From: Chlorobiota bacterium
GTDB lineage: Bacteria > Bacteroidota > Bacteroidia > Bacteroidales > JAADGE01
Assembly: GCA_013152535.1 (NCBI GenBank)
Contig: JAADGE010000066.1
Span: 1-52,759 of the forward strand
DNA: 52,759 bases
Direction: 5' to 3'
Part shown: positions 1,874 to 8,451 of the stretch, one piece after another
How positions within the stretch are numbered: position 1 is the stretch's first letter
How the letters are laid out: every line of letters begins with the position of its first letter
Made by a program: the position numbers and the translations under genes
Notes under the pieces: generated by a model
Seen by the model: the letters and a program-made list of their open reading frames with translations, nothing else
The model's database searches: none
Told to the model about the DNA's origin: nothing

Positions 1874-4027
1874 ATGAAAAAACTCCTATTCACAATTCTG
1901 CTTTTTACCGGTATTGTTATAAATACTTTTGCTCAACATTCAAATCCGGATACCGTTCGGGTAACATATACAAATCAAAAAATTATTTTTGACGGCATCC
2001 CGAATGAAGCTGTTTGGCAAACTGCACAACATATCTCCAACTTTACGCAACGCGAATTAAATTTCGGGCAACCGGCAAGCGAGAAAACGAAAGTTGCTGT
2101 TTTATATGACAAGAACAACCTGTACTTCGGCATTTGGTGTTATCAAAATCCGAAAAGTATTGTTGCCAAAAATATGGGTGTTGATTTTGATGTCGAATCG
2201 GACGATAATTTTCAAATTGTAATAAGCCCGTTTAACGACAACCGAGGCGGTTATTTTTTTGCAATAAACCCAAACGGAGCAAGAAGCGATATATTAATTG
2301 CCGGAAACGAAGAAGGAAACAAAGACTGGAACGGAGTATGGGATGCGAAAACATCCGTTACTTCCGAAGGTTGGTTTGCAGAAATTATTATTCCGTTCAG
2401 CACTTTACAATTCAAAAATGATAATAATTACGACTGGGCAATAAATTTTGAACGCGATATCGTTTCAAAAAACGAACAAGCACTTTGGCAAGGCTGGACT
2501 CGCGATAATTCGATTTTTGCCGTTGTGAATGCCGGAACAATACGCGGATTAAAAAATATTACGTATGCACAAAAATTTGAATTAAAACCGTTTACGCTGG
2601 CAGGAATTCAATATAACAGAGATGATAAAAATAATTATCCGATAAAATTCGGCGGCGATTTAAATGTAAATATAACGCCTTCGTTAAAACTTAACTTAAC
2701 CAGTTTTACGGATTTTGCACAAGTTGAATCCGACCGTATTCCGGTAAATCTTTCGCGTTTCAGTGTATATTATCCGGAAAAACGAGCTTATTTTCTGGAA
2801 GGATACGATAAATTCGGCTTCTATTTAGGCGATCGAAATATGATATTTTACACTCGAACACTCGGAACCGAAAACGAGCAAACCGTTCCGATTATAGGAG
2901 GAATTCGCCTTTTCGGAAAAATAGGAAAGCACAACATAGGACTGTTAAATTTGGAAGAAGGAAAAATCGACAGTATTTCGGCAACCAATAATACCGTTTT
3001 AAGATACAAATACGACATCGGCGAACAATCGTATATCGGCGGAATTTTCACGAATAAAATTAACAATACCGTTTCAAACCAAGTTCTCGGTCTTGACGCT
3101 TCCTATCAGAATTCACATTTCCTTAAAAATAAAAATTTAACTCTGTCGGCCAATATTGCACTGAGCGGAAAAAATTTCTCATTTTCTGATAGTGCAATGA
3201 CATACAGACTGTTCGCTGATTACCCCAACGACCTGATTGACAACTATATGAGCATTGCAAGTATGCAGAAAGATTTTAATCCTGAATTGGGATATTTGCG
3301 TAGAAGCAATTATCGATCGTACAGCTGGTATTTCCGTATCACACCTCGATTTTTTACAAAATACGGTATTAAAAAAATGATATTTAAACCGTGGGGATTT
3401 ACAGTTTATCAAACTCTGAGTTCCGGCAAACTCGAAAGTTTTTCTAACGAAACCCGTCCGCTCGGTGCTGTTTTTAAATCCGGAGAACGTTTTGAAGTAA
3501 ATTTCCAACAATCATTTGACCGTTTAGACGAAGGTTTTGAACTTACGGACAGTATTACCATTCCCGTAGGCAGCTATTGGATGTTTCGAAAAGAGCTTCA
3601 ATTTGAAACCAACAGGGCAAGACGTCTTTGGATTTCCTTATTTTACAATTGGGGAAATTTTTATACCGGAAACATTAATACCTTCGAGGGTGAAGTCGGT
3701 TTTAATATCAGCAAACATTTTAACATAAATACAAATTATACTTTTAATAAAGTTCATCTGCCTCAGGGAGATGTTTCTACACACGAAGTGGCAAGTTATA
3801 TCAATTATGCGTTTAATACGCGTCTGAACATTTCATTTTTCGGACAATGGAACAGTCTGGAAAACGTGATGTTGTATAATTTCCGACTGCATTGGATACC
3901 CAAAATAGGCTCGGATATTTACTTAGTTTTCAATACAAATTATGATGAACCGATTAAACAAATCGAAATTTTAAAACCGGAAACAAGTGCCGGTATTTTA
4001 AAATTAGTTTGGCGATTTACATTTTAA
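1874..4027 (+). CDS. Secreted CBM9-like/DUF5916 protein
   Basis: A 717-residue exported protein. A signal peptide (MKKLLFTILLFTGIVINTFA, then Q) leads into a carbohydrate-binding family 9-like domain at about 25-230 (DGIPNEAVWQTA, then VAVLYDKNNLYFGIWCYQ, the usual start of this domain). The remainder is a DUF5916 region rich in alternating aromatic strands, ending in LVWRFTF with a terminal Phe, typical of outer-membrane beta-barrels. Family members are common in Bacteroidota and their role is not established; an outer-membrane barrel with a periplasmic sugar-binding-like module fits the sequence. It lacks a T9SS sorting domain. It stands alone between the CorA-type gene and the riboswitch-controlled antiporter. 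Confidence 0.85.
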   Translation: MKKLLFTILLFTGIVINTFAQHSNPDTVRVTYTNQKIIFDGIPNEAVWQTAQHISNFTQRELNFGQPASEKTKVAVLYDKNNLYFGIWCYQNPKSIVAKNMGVDFDVESDDNFQIVISPFNDNRGGYFFAINPNGARSDILIAGNEEGNKDWNGVWDAKTSVTSEGWFAEIIIPFSTLQFKNDNNYDWAINFERDIVSKNEQALWQGWTRDNSIFAVVNAGTIRGLKNITYAQKFELKPFTLAGIQYNRDDKNNYPIKFGGDLNVNITPSLKLNLTSFTDFAQVESDRIPVNLSRFSVYYPEKRAYFLEGYDKFGFYLGDRNMIFYTRTLGTENEQTVPIIGGIRLFGKIGKHNIGLLNLEEGKIDSISATNNTVLRYKYDIGEQSYIGGIFTNKINNTVSNQVLGLDASYQNSHFLKNKNLTLSANIALSGKNFSFSDSAMTYRLFADYPNDLIDNYMSIASMQKDFNPELGYLRRSNYRSYSWYFRITPRFFTKYGIKKMIFKPWGFTVYQTLSSGKLESFSNETRPLGAVFKSGERFEVNFQQSFDRLDEGFELTDSITIPVGSYWMFRKELQFETNRARRLWISLFYNWGNFYTGNINTFEGEVGFNISKHFNINTNYTFNKVHLPQGDVSTHEVASYINYAFNTRLNISFFGQWNSLENVMLYNFRLHWIPKIGSDIYLVFNTNYDEPIKQIEILKPETSAGILKLVWRFTF

Positions 4028-4110: not shown

Positions 4111-4140
4111 TTTGGTATTATTAAACATTATCTATTTTTG
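4111..4140 (+). promoter_or_regulatory. Promoter of the fluoride-riboswitch transcript
   Basis: TTTG at 4111-4114 and TATTTTTG at 4133-4140 match the Bacteroidota -33 and -7 boxes with an 18-nt spacer, near the usual 19. Transcription would start near 4147, only ~8 nt before the first base of the aptamer. This spacing supports both calls. Confidence 0.65.
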
Positions 4141-4154
4141 CAAACTCAAAAATC

Positions 4155-4210
4155 GGTGATGAAGTTCACCCTAAACCGTTCCGAGTATTCTTCGGACTGA
4201 TGACTTCTGC
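4155..4210 (+). promoter_or_regulatory. Fluoride riboswitch (crcB motif)
   Basis: The fold and conserved bases of the fluoride aptamer are all present. Stem 1 is GGTG (4155-4158) with CACC (4167-4170), enclosing the loop ATGAAGTT. CTAAAC follows. Stem 2 is TCCGA (4180-4184) with TCGGA (4192-4196). The 3' strand is CTGATGACTTCTGC (4197-4210). The essential pseudoknot forms between GAAGT (4161-4165) and ACTTC (4203-4207). Compared with known crcB-motif RNAs (loop GGAGT with ACTCC), both sides have changed together, a compensated pair. The aptamer sits in the leader of the antiporter gene at 4237, with 26 nt between its end and the ATG. There is no obvious terminator, so translational control is more likely. 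Confidence 0.93.
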
Positions 4211-4236
4211 TTTTATGAACATTTAAATTTACTATT

Positions 4237-5484
4237 ATGATTGTATCATTAGCAGGATTAGTTATAGCCGGAATGCTCATTGCCTGGCTTTTCAAATTTC
4301 TTAAAGTCCCCGAATTAGTAGGTATTTTAATTCTCGGTATTGCACTGGGACCCTTTGCTTTAAATATGCTGGACCCGAGTTTAATTAACATTGCGGGACA
4401 GTTAACTTCTGCGGCATTAATTGTCATTTTACTTCGAGCCGGATTTGAATTATCTAAAGACACACTTAAAAAAGTCGGACGTCCGGCAATATTATTGTCC
4501 ATGGTTCCGGCCGCCTTTGAAGCAACGGCAATTATGTTTTTAGCCCATTATTTTTTAAATTTTACCTTACTCGAAGGAGCAATCCTCGGTTCCGTTTTGG
4601 GGGCTGTTTCTCCGGCAGTAGTCGTTCCGCTGATGATTAAGTTTATTGACGAAAAGCGCGGCACAAAAAAAGGTATTCCTACACTTGTACTTGCAGGTTC
4701 TTCAATCGACGATGTTTTTGTTATTGTAATTTACAGTATTTTAATCGGTATATACACCGGTGGGCATGTTAATGTTGCTTGGGAACTTTTCAGTATTCCT
4801 ATTTCAATTATTCTCGGTATTGTTGTCGGTTTAATTGTGGGTTTAGTGTTGTATATTCTTTTTGATAAATTCAATCCGCGTGCAACAAAACGAATGCTCA
4901 TTATTTTAGCAATTTCTGTTTTTTTGGTTCAGGCAGAACATTTACTTGATAATATAATTCCTTTTGCTTCATTACTCGCAGTTATGGCTATAGGATTTAT
5001 TATTTTAGAAAAACGAGGAAAATATGCACACGAATTATCTGAAAAACTTTCAAAACTGTGGATTTTGGCAGAAATAGTTTTGTTTACTATGGTCGGGTCT
5101 GAAGTAAACATTCATCTTGCTTTAAAAATGGGATTAATCGGTGCATTAATTATATTTATTGCATTAATTTTCAGGAGTATAGGAACTTGGGTCAGTTTAA
5201 TAGGAACAAATTTTACAAGAAAAGAAAAATTATTTATTATTATTTCATACATTCCGAAAGCAACCGTTCAGGCAGCCATAGGCGGAGCTCCGCTTGCAGC
5301 TATGCAAGCTTCCGGTATGACAACTCTGCCGGGTGAACAAATATTAGCAATGGCTGTATTAAGTATTTTATTGACTGCTCCACTCGGTGCCTGGGGAATA
5401 ACCGTTTACGGAAAAAAAGTTTTGGAAGTTGATACTGAATTAACGGTTCATACGAAACAAGAAATTTCAGAAAATAACAAATAA
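4237..5484 (+). CDS. Cation:proton antiporter under fluoride riboswitch control
   Basis: A 415-residue integral membrane protein of the CPA (NhaP/NapA-like) antiporter superfamily with about 11-12 helices. The N-terminal half has GILILGIALGPFALNML, typical of the Na_H_Exchanger domain. The ion-binding helix reads SSIDDVFVIV with a paired Asp motif at 158-159, as in electrogenic CPA2 proteins. A later half-repeat (SYIPKATVQAAIGGAPLAAM) carries the conserved Lys of the transport core. A fluoride riboswitch precedes it, so it is probably induced by fluoride and relieves ion or pH stress; this is inferred from regulation. Whether it carries Na+, K+ or another ion is not visible. The CDS converges on uvrA across a shared terminator. 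Confidence 0.9.
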   Translation: MIVSLAGLVIAGMLIAWLFKFLKVPELVGILILGIALGPFALNMLDPSLINIAGQLTSAALIVILLRAGFELSKDTLKKVGRPAILLSMVPAAFEATAIMFLAHYFLNFTLLEGAILGSVLGAVSPAVVVPLMIKFIDEKRGTKKGIPTLVLAGSSIDDVFVIVIYSILIGIYTGGHVNVAWELFSIPISIILGIVVGLIVGLVLYILFDKFNPRATKRMLIILAISVFLVQAEHLLDNIIPFASLLAVMAIGFIILEKRGKYAHELSEKLSKLWILAEIVLFTMVGSEVNIHLALKMGLIGALIIFIALIFRSIGTWVSLIGTNFTRKEKLFIIISYIPKATVQAAIGGAPLAAMQASGMTTLPGEQILAMAVLSILLTAPLGAWGITVYGKKVLEVDTELTVHTKQEISENNK

Positions 5485-5607: not shown

Positions 5608-8451
5608 TTAGAGTTTCTCTTTCAAATATTTTGCGGTATAAGATTTTTTGCATTTTGTTAATTCTTCCGGTGTGCCGGAAAATAATAAATATCCGCCTTT
5701 TTCGCCGCCTTCAAGTCCCAAATCAATTACATAATCAGCTGATTTTATAATTTCAAGATTATGCTCAATAATAATAATTGTATGTCCTCTGTCCGACAAA
5801 GCATTAAATGATTGTAATAATTTATTAATATCATGAAAATGCAAACCGGTTGTGGGTTCATCAAATATAAACAAGGTTTTTTTTTGCATTTTTTCCTTAC
5901 TTAAAAAAGATGCCAACTTAACCCTTTGACTTTCACCGCCGCTTAATGTATTTGACGATTGTCCGAGTTTAACATAGGATAAGCCGACATCAAGCAATGG
6001 TTTTATCTGCGATGCAATCTTTTCTGTTTCTTTTTTCTCATAAAAGAAGTTATAAGCTTCTTCAACCGTTAATTCCAAAATATCAAAAATATTTTTACCT
6101 CTGTATGTAACATTCAGGATTTCTTCTTTATAGCGTTTTCCTTTGCATTCTTCACATTCCAAATGCACATCAGCCATAAATTGCATTTCAACAGTAATTT
6201 CACCTTCTCCGTTACAAGTATCACAACGTCCGCCGTCCACATTAAACGAAAAATGTGAAGGTTTAAACCCGTTTATTTTCGATGCTTGTTGCGAAGCAAA
6301 TAATTTTCGAATTTCATCAAATGCTTTCAAATAAATAACAGGATTTGAACGGGATGATTTTCCTATCGGATTTTGATTTACAAATTCCACAATATCAATT
6401 TGTTTTATGTCTCCGTATAATTCTGAAAAATCTCCCGGCTTTTTTCCGAAATCATTAATTTCACGACTTATTGCAGGATATAAAACATCACGAACTAAAG
6501 ACGATTTACCCGAACCGCTTACTCCGGTAACAACCGTTATCACATTTAAAGGAAATTCAACAGAAATATTTTTCAGATTATTATGTGTTACCCCTTTCAG
6601 ACCTATAAAATGATTTGATGTTCTTCTTTTTTCAGGTAATGAAATTGAAAGTTCATTTCGTAAATATTTTGCCGTGTAAGATTTTTCAGCTAAGTGCTTT
6701 TTATTAACTAACTCGCTGTAAGAGCCTTGAAAAATAACTTCGCCGCCGCCGACACCTGCATTCGGTCCGATATCAATAATACTGTCAGCCGCTTTTATAA
6801 TATCTTCGTCGTGTTCAACAACAATAACTGTATTCCCGATATCGCGAAGTTGCTTTAATACTTTTATAAGAAGGTGCGTATCTCTCGGATGTAAACCTAT
6901 ACTCGGTTCATCCAAAATATACAAAGAACCTTCCAAACTGCTGCCGAGAGAACTTGCCAAATTTATACGTTGTGACTCACCGCCGGATAATGTTGATGAC
7001 AATCGATTCAGAGTTAAATAAGATAACCCGACATCCGACAAATATTGCAATCTGTTAGTAATTTCCGTCAATAATCGTTTTGCCGTTTTCTTCTGATATT
7101 CAGATAAGTTCAAATTTTTAAAAAAGTTTTTCAAATCACTTATCGGAATATTTACCAAATCACTTATTGATTTTCCGCTTATTTTAACATAAGAAGCTTC
7201 TTTTTTTAATCGTGTCCCTTTGCATTCGCGACAAATTGTTTTTCCTCTGAATCGAGAAAGCATTACTCGATATTGTATCTTTCTGCTTTTCTTTTCAATT
7301 TTTTTAAAAAACGAGAAAATACCGAGAACCGATTTATTCCCTTCCCATAAAAGATTTTTTTCTTTTTGCGATAATTCAAAATATGCACGATGAACAGGGA
7401 AATCAAAATCTATAACATTTTCAATAAAACGATCTTTATACCAACTCATTTTCTCGCCCCGCCAACAAGCAACAGCTCCCTGATATACCGATAAAGTTTT
7501 GTTCGGAATAACCAAATCTTCATCAATTCCCATGGTTTTACCGTAGCCCTCACATACCGGACAAGCACCCACAGGATTATTAAAATTAAACATATGAACA
7601 GAGGGGATTTCAAATTGTATTCCGTCAGATTCAAACTTATCGGAAAATTCATTAATTACAATCTCATCTCCGTTATAAACTTTTATTCTGCAAATCCCTT
7701 TTCCTTCATAAAAAGCCGTTTGCACGGAATCTGATATTCTGCTTATGGTATCTTCATCATAATTAACGGATATTCTGTCAATCACAATATTAGCAATTTT
7801 TGGTTTACTCAATTTCTTTTTCGTAATAAGTTCTTCCGTTTTAAAAACATTCCCGTCAAATTCAACACGCATAAATCCTTGTTTTAACAAAACTTGTAAA
7901 TGTTCCGAATATGTTCGGTCATTATTTACGTATAAAGGAGATAAAATTATTGCTTTTGTTCCTTCTGTAAATCCGTTAATAAAATTTACCACATCACTAA
8001 CTGAATCTTTTTTTACTTTTTTACCTGAAATCGGAGAAAAAGTCTCTCCTGCCCTTGCAAACAATAATTTCAAATAATCATACACCTCAGTAGAAGTTCC
8101 GACAGTCGAACGCGGATTTCGTGTATTTACTTTCTGCTCAACGGCAATTGCCGGAGGAATTCCTTTTATAAAATCAACTTCAGGCTTATTTAATCTTCCG
8201 AGAAACTGACGTGCATAAGACGATAAACTCTCAACATATCTCCGCTGCCCTTCGGCATACAAAGTATCAAAAGCTAAAGACGATTTTCCCGAACCCGACA
8301 AACCGGTGATAACAACTAACTTATCACGCTCAATTGATAAGTCAATATTCTTTAAATTATGAACTCTTGCACCTTTAATTTCAATATTTTCAGAAAATAA
8401 TTCATTTTCTTTATTTACTTTTAAAATATTATTCTTATTTTCTTTCGGCAC
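5608..8451 (-). CDS. uvrA: Excinuclease ABC subunit A
   Basis: UvrA (947 residues) is the damage-recognition ATPase of nucleotide excision repair; it dimerises on DNA and loads UvrB. Two ABC modules are complete. The first has Walker [13 protein letters not shown] (Lys56) and signature [20 protein letters not shown] with [11 protein letters not shown]. The second has [17 protein letters not shown] and [16 protein letters not shown] with [10 protein letters not shown]. Zinc modules are visible: CPVC and CREC in the first half, CDTC and CEEC in the second. The length is normal, with a ~20-residue N-terminal extension before the conserved [14 protein letters not shown]. It is a lone gene with a TAGATTTG -7 box at 8481-8488. 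Many Bacteroidota carry two UvrA paralogues; this one has the full zinc and UvrB-binding regions expected of the repair protein. Confidence 0.95.

Follow-up and report, generated by a model that had tools for sequence, protein, structure and literature searches.

An NHA-type antiporter gene behind a fluoride riboswitch and its mutual exclusion with known fluoride exporters in two genome samples

The analysis of two genome samples, one of Spirochaetota and one of the order to which the DNA studied here belongs, revealed a mutual exclusion between the gene of an NHA-type cation/proton antiporter and the known fluoride exporters. In the window, i.e. the whole analysed stretch of 52,759 nucleotides, this gene lies behind a fluoride riboswitch. 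The exclusion, which includes a swap within a genus, is evidence for a stand-alone fluoride-defence transporter, and we consider it probable that the NHA-type antiporter takes the place of Fluc/CLC-F as a fluoride defence of its own.

The riboswitch, its leader and the antiporter

The features of the window are as follows:

4133-4140, forward strand: candidate Bacteroidota-type -7 promoter element (TAnnTTTG), TATTTTTG
4146-4216, forward strand: fluoride riboswitch aptamer (crcB motif), RF01734 score above the cut-off
4155-4170, forward strand: P1 hairpin (4155-4158 with 4167-4170) from the Rfam alignment, 98.6% of cells paired in 18 relatives
4161-4165, forward strand: pseudoknot 5' strand GAAGU, partner 4203-4207, 100% paired in 18 sequences
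4203-4207, forward strand: pseudoknot 3' strand ACUUC, from the same 18-sequence pairing count
4183-4278, forward strand: possible fluoride-free alternative helix, predicted (MFE -36.8 kcal/mol, z -3.06)
4237-5484 (stop included), forward strand: NHA-type (SLC9B2-like) CPA cation/proton antiporter of 415 aa, PF00999 E 9e-45
4708-4713, forward strand: ion-site aspartates D158-D159 (D278-D279 of NHA2), from the alignment to NHA2

The sequence-only reading of this DNA had recognised a complete crcB aptamer in the leader and proposed a search with the Rfam model. Indeed, cmscan over the whole window returned RF01734 at 4146-4216 of the forward strand, over the full model (1-64), with 49.9 bits (E 6.4e-11) against a gathering cut-off of 34 bits, and P1, the pseudoknot, the CUGAUG core and, in the Rfam alignment, the second hairpin are all present; the sole correction needed concerns the beginning of the aptamer, which lies at about 4146 and not at 4155. 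The pseudoknot GAAGU/ACUUC represents a compensated change with respect to GGAGU/ACUCC. Covariation was counted over P1 and the pseudoknot of 18 aptamers located 5' of NHA-type antiporters: 99.4% of the cells are paired, and 29 cells carry double changes versus 7.1 (sd 3.2) in shuffles, these changes falling at two of the four P1 pairs and at three of the five pseudoknot pairs, with nothing comparable once the partner strand is slid. Both the covariance score and this covariation place the element in RF01734, of which no second copy was found in a search of the genome (a 3.3-Mb assembly, 98.2% complete).

Twenty bases separate the end of the aptamer from the start of the antiporter ORF, and no terminator is visible in this 20-base leader; the start region of the antiporter may be masked instead. 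In the predicted alternative fold, the 3' half of the aptamer (4183-4211) would pair with codons near the 5' end of the gene (4251-4278), with the start codon enclosed between the two strands, and similar folds are predicted in three relatives (L033-L035; z -1.28, -1.94 and -2.13). This helix displayed 0 double changes and 88% of paired cells, no better than shuffles, and locking the aptamer in the model, which leaves the pseudoknot outside, did not free the start codon: the window AUG is unpaired at 0.93/0.19/0.12 versus 0.92/0.19/0.11 in this comparison, that is, unchanged. Because of the missing covariation and of the AUG not being freed by locking, regulation by the alternative helix is put forward as a proposal. 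In some other members (e.g. L182, L183, L220 and L222), terminator-like hairpins overlapping the 3' strand of the aptamer were seen by eye.

Upstream of the aptamer, the candidate -7 element at 4133-4140 matches the Bacteroidota-type consensus TAnnTTTG, so that the transcript would begin close to the aptamer's first nucleotide. By eye, L033, L034 and L035 have a similar element in nearly the same position; in the window as a whole the pattern occurs 101 times versus 94.7 expected, i.e. not more commonly than by chance. Scanning for sigma-70 promoters gave one promoter-like site on each strand (two in all, versus a mean of 1.3 in shuffles), and the terminator scan gave a single candidate, located on the minus strand; neither outcome was used. 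A small upstream ORF of three codons (ATG at 4215) was rejected as a regulatory part, since L033 and L034 do not share its ATG. The long ORF that comes next after the antiporter (5608-8451) is a minus-strand one; thus, the switch seems to control no other gene than the antiporter. Genes for a CorA-type Mg2+ transporter and a DUF5916 protein are located upstream on the same strand (778-1707 and 1874-4027).

The product had been recognised from the letters as a CPA antiporter with a paired-Asp motif, and the domain search agrees with this: PF00999 is its sole Pfam match, so the protein is neither Fluc/CrcB nor a CLC such as CLC-F. Its closest solved protein by sequence is human NHA2/SLC9B2 (E 1e-41), which is also the best fold match (TM 0.85) of an AlphaFold2 model built from 12 sequences (pLDDT 82, pTM 0.79); the Na_H_Exchanger domain and the fold nearest NHA2 thus assign it to the NHA branch, as does the ion site, where E95, D158, D159, R313 and K341 align with E215, D278, D279, R432 and K460 of NHA2, residues whose roles are described in excerpts of PMC12072577. 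In a 60-row protein alignment, from which five of 64 relatives shorter than 350 aa were left out (L039, L041, L191, L218 and L255), E95, D159, R313 and K341 are invariant in 39 of 39 riboswitch-linked members and D158 is kept in 37, while D159 varies in four of the 21 members for which no riboswitch was found. This conservation suggests that the riboswitch-linked members keep the cation/proton exchange site. The same genome encodes two more antiporters, both distant (28 and 26 bits).

A survey of Bacteroidota gave 52 riboswitch places above the cut-off which, by comparison of the first ORF, precede CLC-F (21), Fluc (17), CPA antiporters (two, the window and L028) or other and unassigned genes (12). 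Further genes were noticed behind fluoride riboswitches. In Bacteroidota and Spirochaetota, ORFs of the dynamin-family GTPases lie directly 3' of some of them (L026 and L091, matching PF00350), those of L058, L093 and L095 being alike by look, and a literature search for fluoride riboswitch and dynamin found no paper. Three Spirochaetota loci (L084, L096 and L109) harbor genes of about 215-230 aa, that of L084 matching DUF6062, and a 402-aa ORF with the look of a multi-pass transporter starts 9 bases behind the riboswitch at L104 (G597). A stretch of about 450 bases at L115 (G510:C42:37800-42121) holds three fluoride riboswitches, of which two form a tandem that precedes a KefC/NapA-like antiporter, the third lying on the other strand.

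Distribution of the antiporter and of known exporters

The sequence-only reading had also suggested looking for crcB/fluc or CLC-F in the same genome, and the answer was surprising, since neither was found in the 98.2% complete assembly. A six-frame search for Fluc (PF02537) gave 0 matches, 10 of 14 control genomes being positive, and neither of the two CLC proteins encoded there has any of the three CLC-F signatures, i.e. GNNLI/GMGLI, GREGT/V and GEVTP as listed in excerpts of PMC11139923. The last letters of GNNLI were allowed to vary; read in this way, GNN, GREGT and GEVTP are present in 21 of 21 riboswitch-linked CLC-Fs of the Bacteroidota survey. Three near relatives, with antiporters 92-96% identical, agree in that no exporter was found. 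The link of the protein with fluoride stress stands; of the two roles then envisaged, the finding of no exporter weakens that of a pH helper of an exporter and favors the "more direct part".

A single scan of genome contigs yielded nine related loci, in genomes of Bacteroidota, Spirochaetota, Kiritimatiellae, Rickettsiales and a Bacillota MAG. A riboswitch above the cut-off precedes the gene at six of the nine; none was found at two and one is cut by the contig end. Fluc above the cut-off occurs in 0 of ten genomes (these nine and G337, which carries a second antiporter type), one match below it being present in G403 (20.6 bits), and no CLC-F signature was seen among their seven CLCs where read, the L046 sequence not extending over the place of the first signature. 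NHA-type relatives behind a fluoride riboswitch were found in Bacteroidota, Spirochaetota, a Rickettsiales MAG, Clostridia, Fusobacteriota and Cyanobacteriota. Among plasmid and second-replicon records 798 matched, of which 11 cover at least 80% of the query among the matches listed; all six inspected of these 11 (Peptoclostridium, Acetoanaerobium, Ilyobacter, Cetobacterium, Picosynechococcus and Leptolyngbya) have a riboswitch above the cut-off upstream, with a CBS-domain gene sitting between riboswitch and antiporter in Peptoclostridium. Twenty-eight plasmid records among the matches listed (H13-H40), mainly of Escherichia and Klebsiella, contain a part of an NHA-type gene that encodes the C-terminal half of the antiporter (query 208-415, at 45% identity).

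The sample of 198 Spirochaetota genomes was searched for the riboswitch, Fluc, CLC-F and the NHA-type antiporter. The riboswitch was found in 43 genomes at E <= 0.001 (28 above the cut-off), Fluc above the cut-off in 75, signature CLC-F nine times (three with the GREGV/GELTP variant) and the NHA-type antiporter in 37, with a clean score gap from 122 to 64 bits. Fluc or a signature CLC-F is present in 0 of the 37 carriers versus 83 of the 161 non-carriers (Fisher 1.6e-10, a value which, like the one for the order below, is overstated because the genomes are related). In the control, exporters occur in 35 of 68 genomes harboring only other antiporters versus 48 of 93 without a detectable relative; thus, the effect belongs to the NHA-type branch. 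CLC-F signatures were read in 29 hits (L130-L143, L145-L159), in the 18 CLCs of the riboswitch-antiporter genomes (L160-L177) and in two pieces of G495, and lower-scoring CLC hits, their signatures unread, were assumed to be no CLC-F. Also counted outside CLC-F was an intermediate CLC group (GKEGP, GKEAP or GREAP), found among the NHA carriers in G429 and G495; counting it as exporters would bring the carriers with an exporter to two of 37.

As for regulation, a riboswitch match lies upstream of 23 of the 37 Spirochaetota genes, six above the cut-off and 17 below (19.9-31.9 bits); none was found upstream of the other 14, of which L205 has only 63 bases upstream, and these 14 genomes are also without exporters. 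An exporter occurs in 0 of the 21 genomes whose riboswitch was traced to an antiporter, and likewise in none of 12 further riboswitch-positive genomes: in five of them (G468, G511, G526, G531 and G558) the NHA gene stands behind a weak riboswitch match, G448 has an NHA gene without a traced riboswitch, and the remaining six have no NHA gene. In an AT-rich group (L105, L108, L110-L112, L122-L127 and many of L188-L209), the riboswitches that precede the NHA gene are divergent and mostly score low (about 20-45 bits); there, GCUGAUGACUUCUGC comes ahead of a complementary UUUGCAGA.

The second antiporter type, nearest KefC and NapA, stands behind a riboswitch in seven genomes of Spirochaetota and in one of Bacteroidota (L028, G337), and neither Fluc nor CLC-F was found in these eight. 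Its count covers just the cases reached from a riboswitch and, taken alone in Spirochaetota (0 of seven with an exporter, p 0.04), it gives a weaker result.

In the window's order, 13 of 295 genomes carry the NHA-type gene and 169 Fluc above the cut-off. Fluc, to which the exclusion in this sample refers (CLC-F was looked for just in the window's genome), occurs in one of the 13 carriers versus 168 of the 282 non-carriers (Fisher 2.2e-4). The one genome with both, G238, has a riboswitch before an enolase gene followed by Fluc, and no riboswitch was detected upstream of its NHA gene. Two genomes of the window's genus (G703 and G801) and one of its family (G884) are without the NHA-type gene and with Fluc, and gene-less mates with Fluc also occur in families f87 (G743), f151 (G794) and f74 (G618), while the mates examined in f85, f65 and f161 are without both genes. 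Among 12 further relatives of the order, a riboswitch above the cut-off precedes the gene in five and none was found in seven.

As regards INDEPENDENCE, related genomes are not independent, and the gene lists for the Fisher tests were compiled by hand from the search results. Of the 37 Spirochaetota NHA genes, 35 are of sufficient length for alignment and, at 70% identity, form 12 clusters; all 12 would be without exporters by chance with a rough probability of about 2e-4 if clusters are treated as independent; for the order, one or fewer of ten families with Fluc would occur at about 2e-3, again roughly and with families treated as independent.

Possible roles of the antiporter

The explanation that we place first is a tentative one, to which we would assign a little short of an even chance: a fluoride ON-switch drives a stand-alone NHA-type antiporter, which protects the cell by removing its pH gradient. 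We infer the mechanism of regulation, the direction of transport and the protection as follows. Mg2+-bound fluoride would stabilise the aptamer pseudoknot, whose formation would disrupt the alternative helix that covers the start region, and translation would be turned on; the antiporter would export Na+ (or Li+/K+) and import H+. In a cell without an exporter, HF would enter and F- would be trapped along the pH gradient, whereas proton import would cancel the gradient and end the trapping, and F- would leave as HF. Excerpts of PMC11077948 report that F- accumulation tracks the pH gradient in exporter-less cells, and if F- follows the gradient there, then an exchange of internal Na+ for external protons would put an end to the trapping. 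The retained cation site and the occurrence of two CPA branches seem to favor this pH-gradient reading; indeed, a second CPA branch behind the riboswitch in genomes without exporters speaks for a shared H+/cation chemistry rather than for a special F- site.

Several points count against it. The 14 of 37 Spirochaetota and seven of 12 order genes for which no riboswitch was found do so, as does the small benefit to be expected near neutral or alkaline pH, which favors direct F- transport. E. coli has other Na+/H+ antiporters, and its sensitivity to fluoride without Fluc in spite of them also weighs against a pH-gradient mechanism. Without Fluc, its fluoride MIC falls from 200 mM to about 1 mM (table of PMC11139923, an excerpt).

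A direct export of F- (or HF) by the NHA-type antiporter, which would then be a third class of prokaryotic exporter beside Fluc and CLC-F, seems to us unlikely. The mutual exclusion with the known exporters, seen among genomes from two phyla and within one genus, the relatives behind a fluoride riboswitch across several phyla, and the little protection that a pH-gradient mechanism affords near neutral pH would all fit such a direct export; yet the complete NHA2 cation site is conserved, we know of no anion site in this branch of the fold, and the KefC/NapA-like branch fills the same slot, so that a F- site would have to arise twice. The broader suggestion that NHA-type and KefC/NapA-like antiporters together form a third stand-alone class replacing Fluc/CLC-F, possibly carrying fluoride, appears rather doubtful.

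According to the published view, riboswitch-linked antiporters are helpers in pH homeostasis (section 13 of PMC11139923, in excerpt), so that the protein would only restore cytoplasmic pH and Na+/K+ balance beside an exporter under HF stress. An operon of C. difficile in which a NhaP-type antiporter shares the riboswitch with a CLC-type exporter (PMC11477304, in excerpt) fits this helper role and counts against the stand-alone reading. However, no known exporter was found in the window's genome or in any of the 37 Spirochaetota carriers, and no Fluc in 12 of the 13 order carriers (Fluc only, CLC-F having been sought just in the window's genome); the published reading fits these genomes least, and we regard it as improbable here. 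Finally, it is very improbable that the gene merely sits in lineages with lost Fluc or unrecognised exporters, with no functional replacement, an idea that would suit the 12 Spirochaetota protein clusters (one holding 21 aligned members) and the families whose mates lack both genes, and that is countered by the contrast within genus and family (G000 versus G703, G801 and G884), by the Fluc-bearing, gene-less mates in three further families and by the other antiporters showing no exclusion effect.

If the NHA-type antiporter does replace the exporters, then some "exporter-less" bacteria have an unrecognised fluoride defence, and the family of human NHA2 gains bacterial relatives with a known inducing signal; the question would be directly testable in a laboratory strain without crcB.

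Comparison with known systems

The presence of antiporters among fluoride-riboswitch genes, which the sequence-only reading had mentioned, is in print: excerpts of PMC11139923 rank Na+/H+ antiporters as the next most common riboswitch-linked genes after the exporters, of which two bacterial kinds are counted, and PMC11477304 describes the C. difficile case. Our literature search, with the key 2012 papers and supplements outside it, found no paper reporting the exclusion or a CPA protein as a fluoride exporter. Thus, the pairing of riboswitch and antiporter was already known, and what is new is the exclusion with known exporters. The riboswitch-linked Na+/H+ antiporters of Baker et al. (2012), as relayed by the excerpts of PMC11139923, show the same pairing as the window; they differ in being read in terms of pH homeostasis, with the exclusion with Fluc/CLC-F unmentioned in those excerpts.

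The riboswitch of the window resembles the other members of RF01734 in having P1, the pseudoknot and the CUGAUG core and in preceding a transporter gene, whereas the gene it controls is a lone antiporter, neither Fluc nor CLC-F. With these two exporters the antiporter shares the riboswitch and, as we propose, the cellular role; the proteins are unrelated to it, and neither was found in the window's genome. In sequence, fold and the E/D/D/R/K ion site it is close to human NHA2/SLC9B2, from which it differs in being bacterial, in having no extended N-terminal region and in standing under a fluoride riboswitch.
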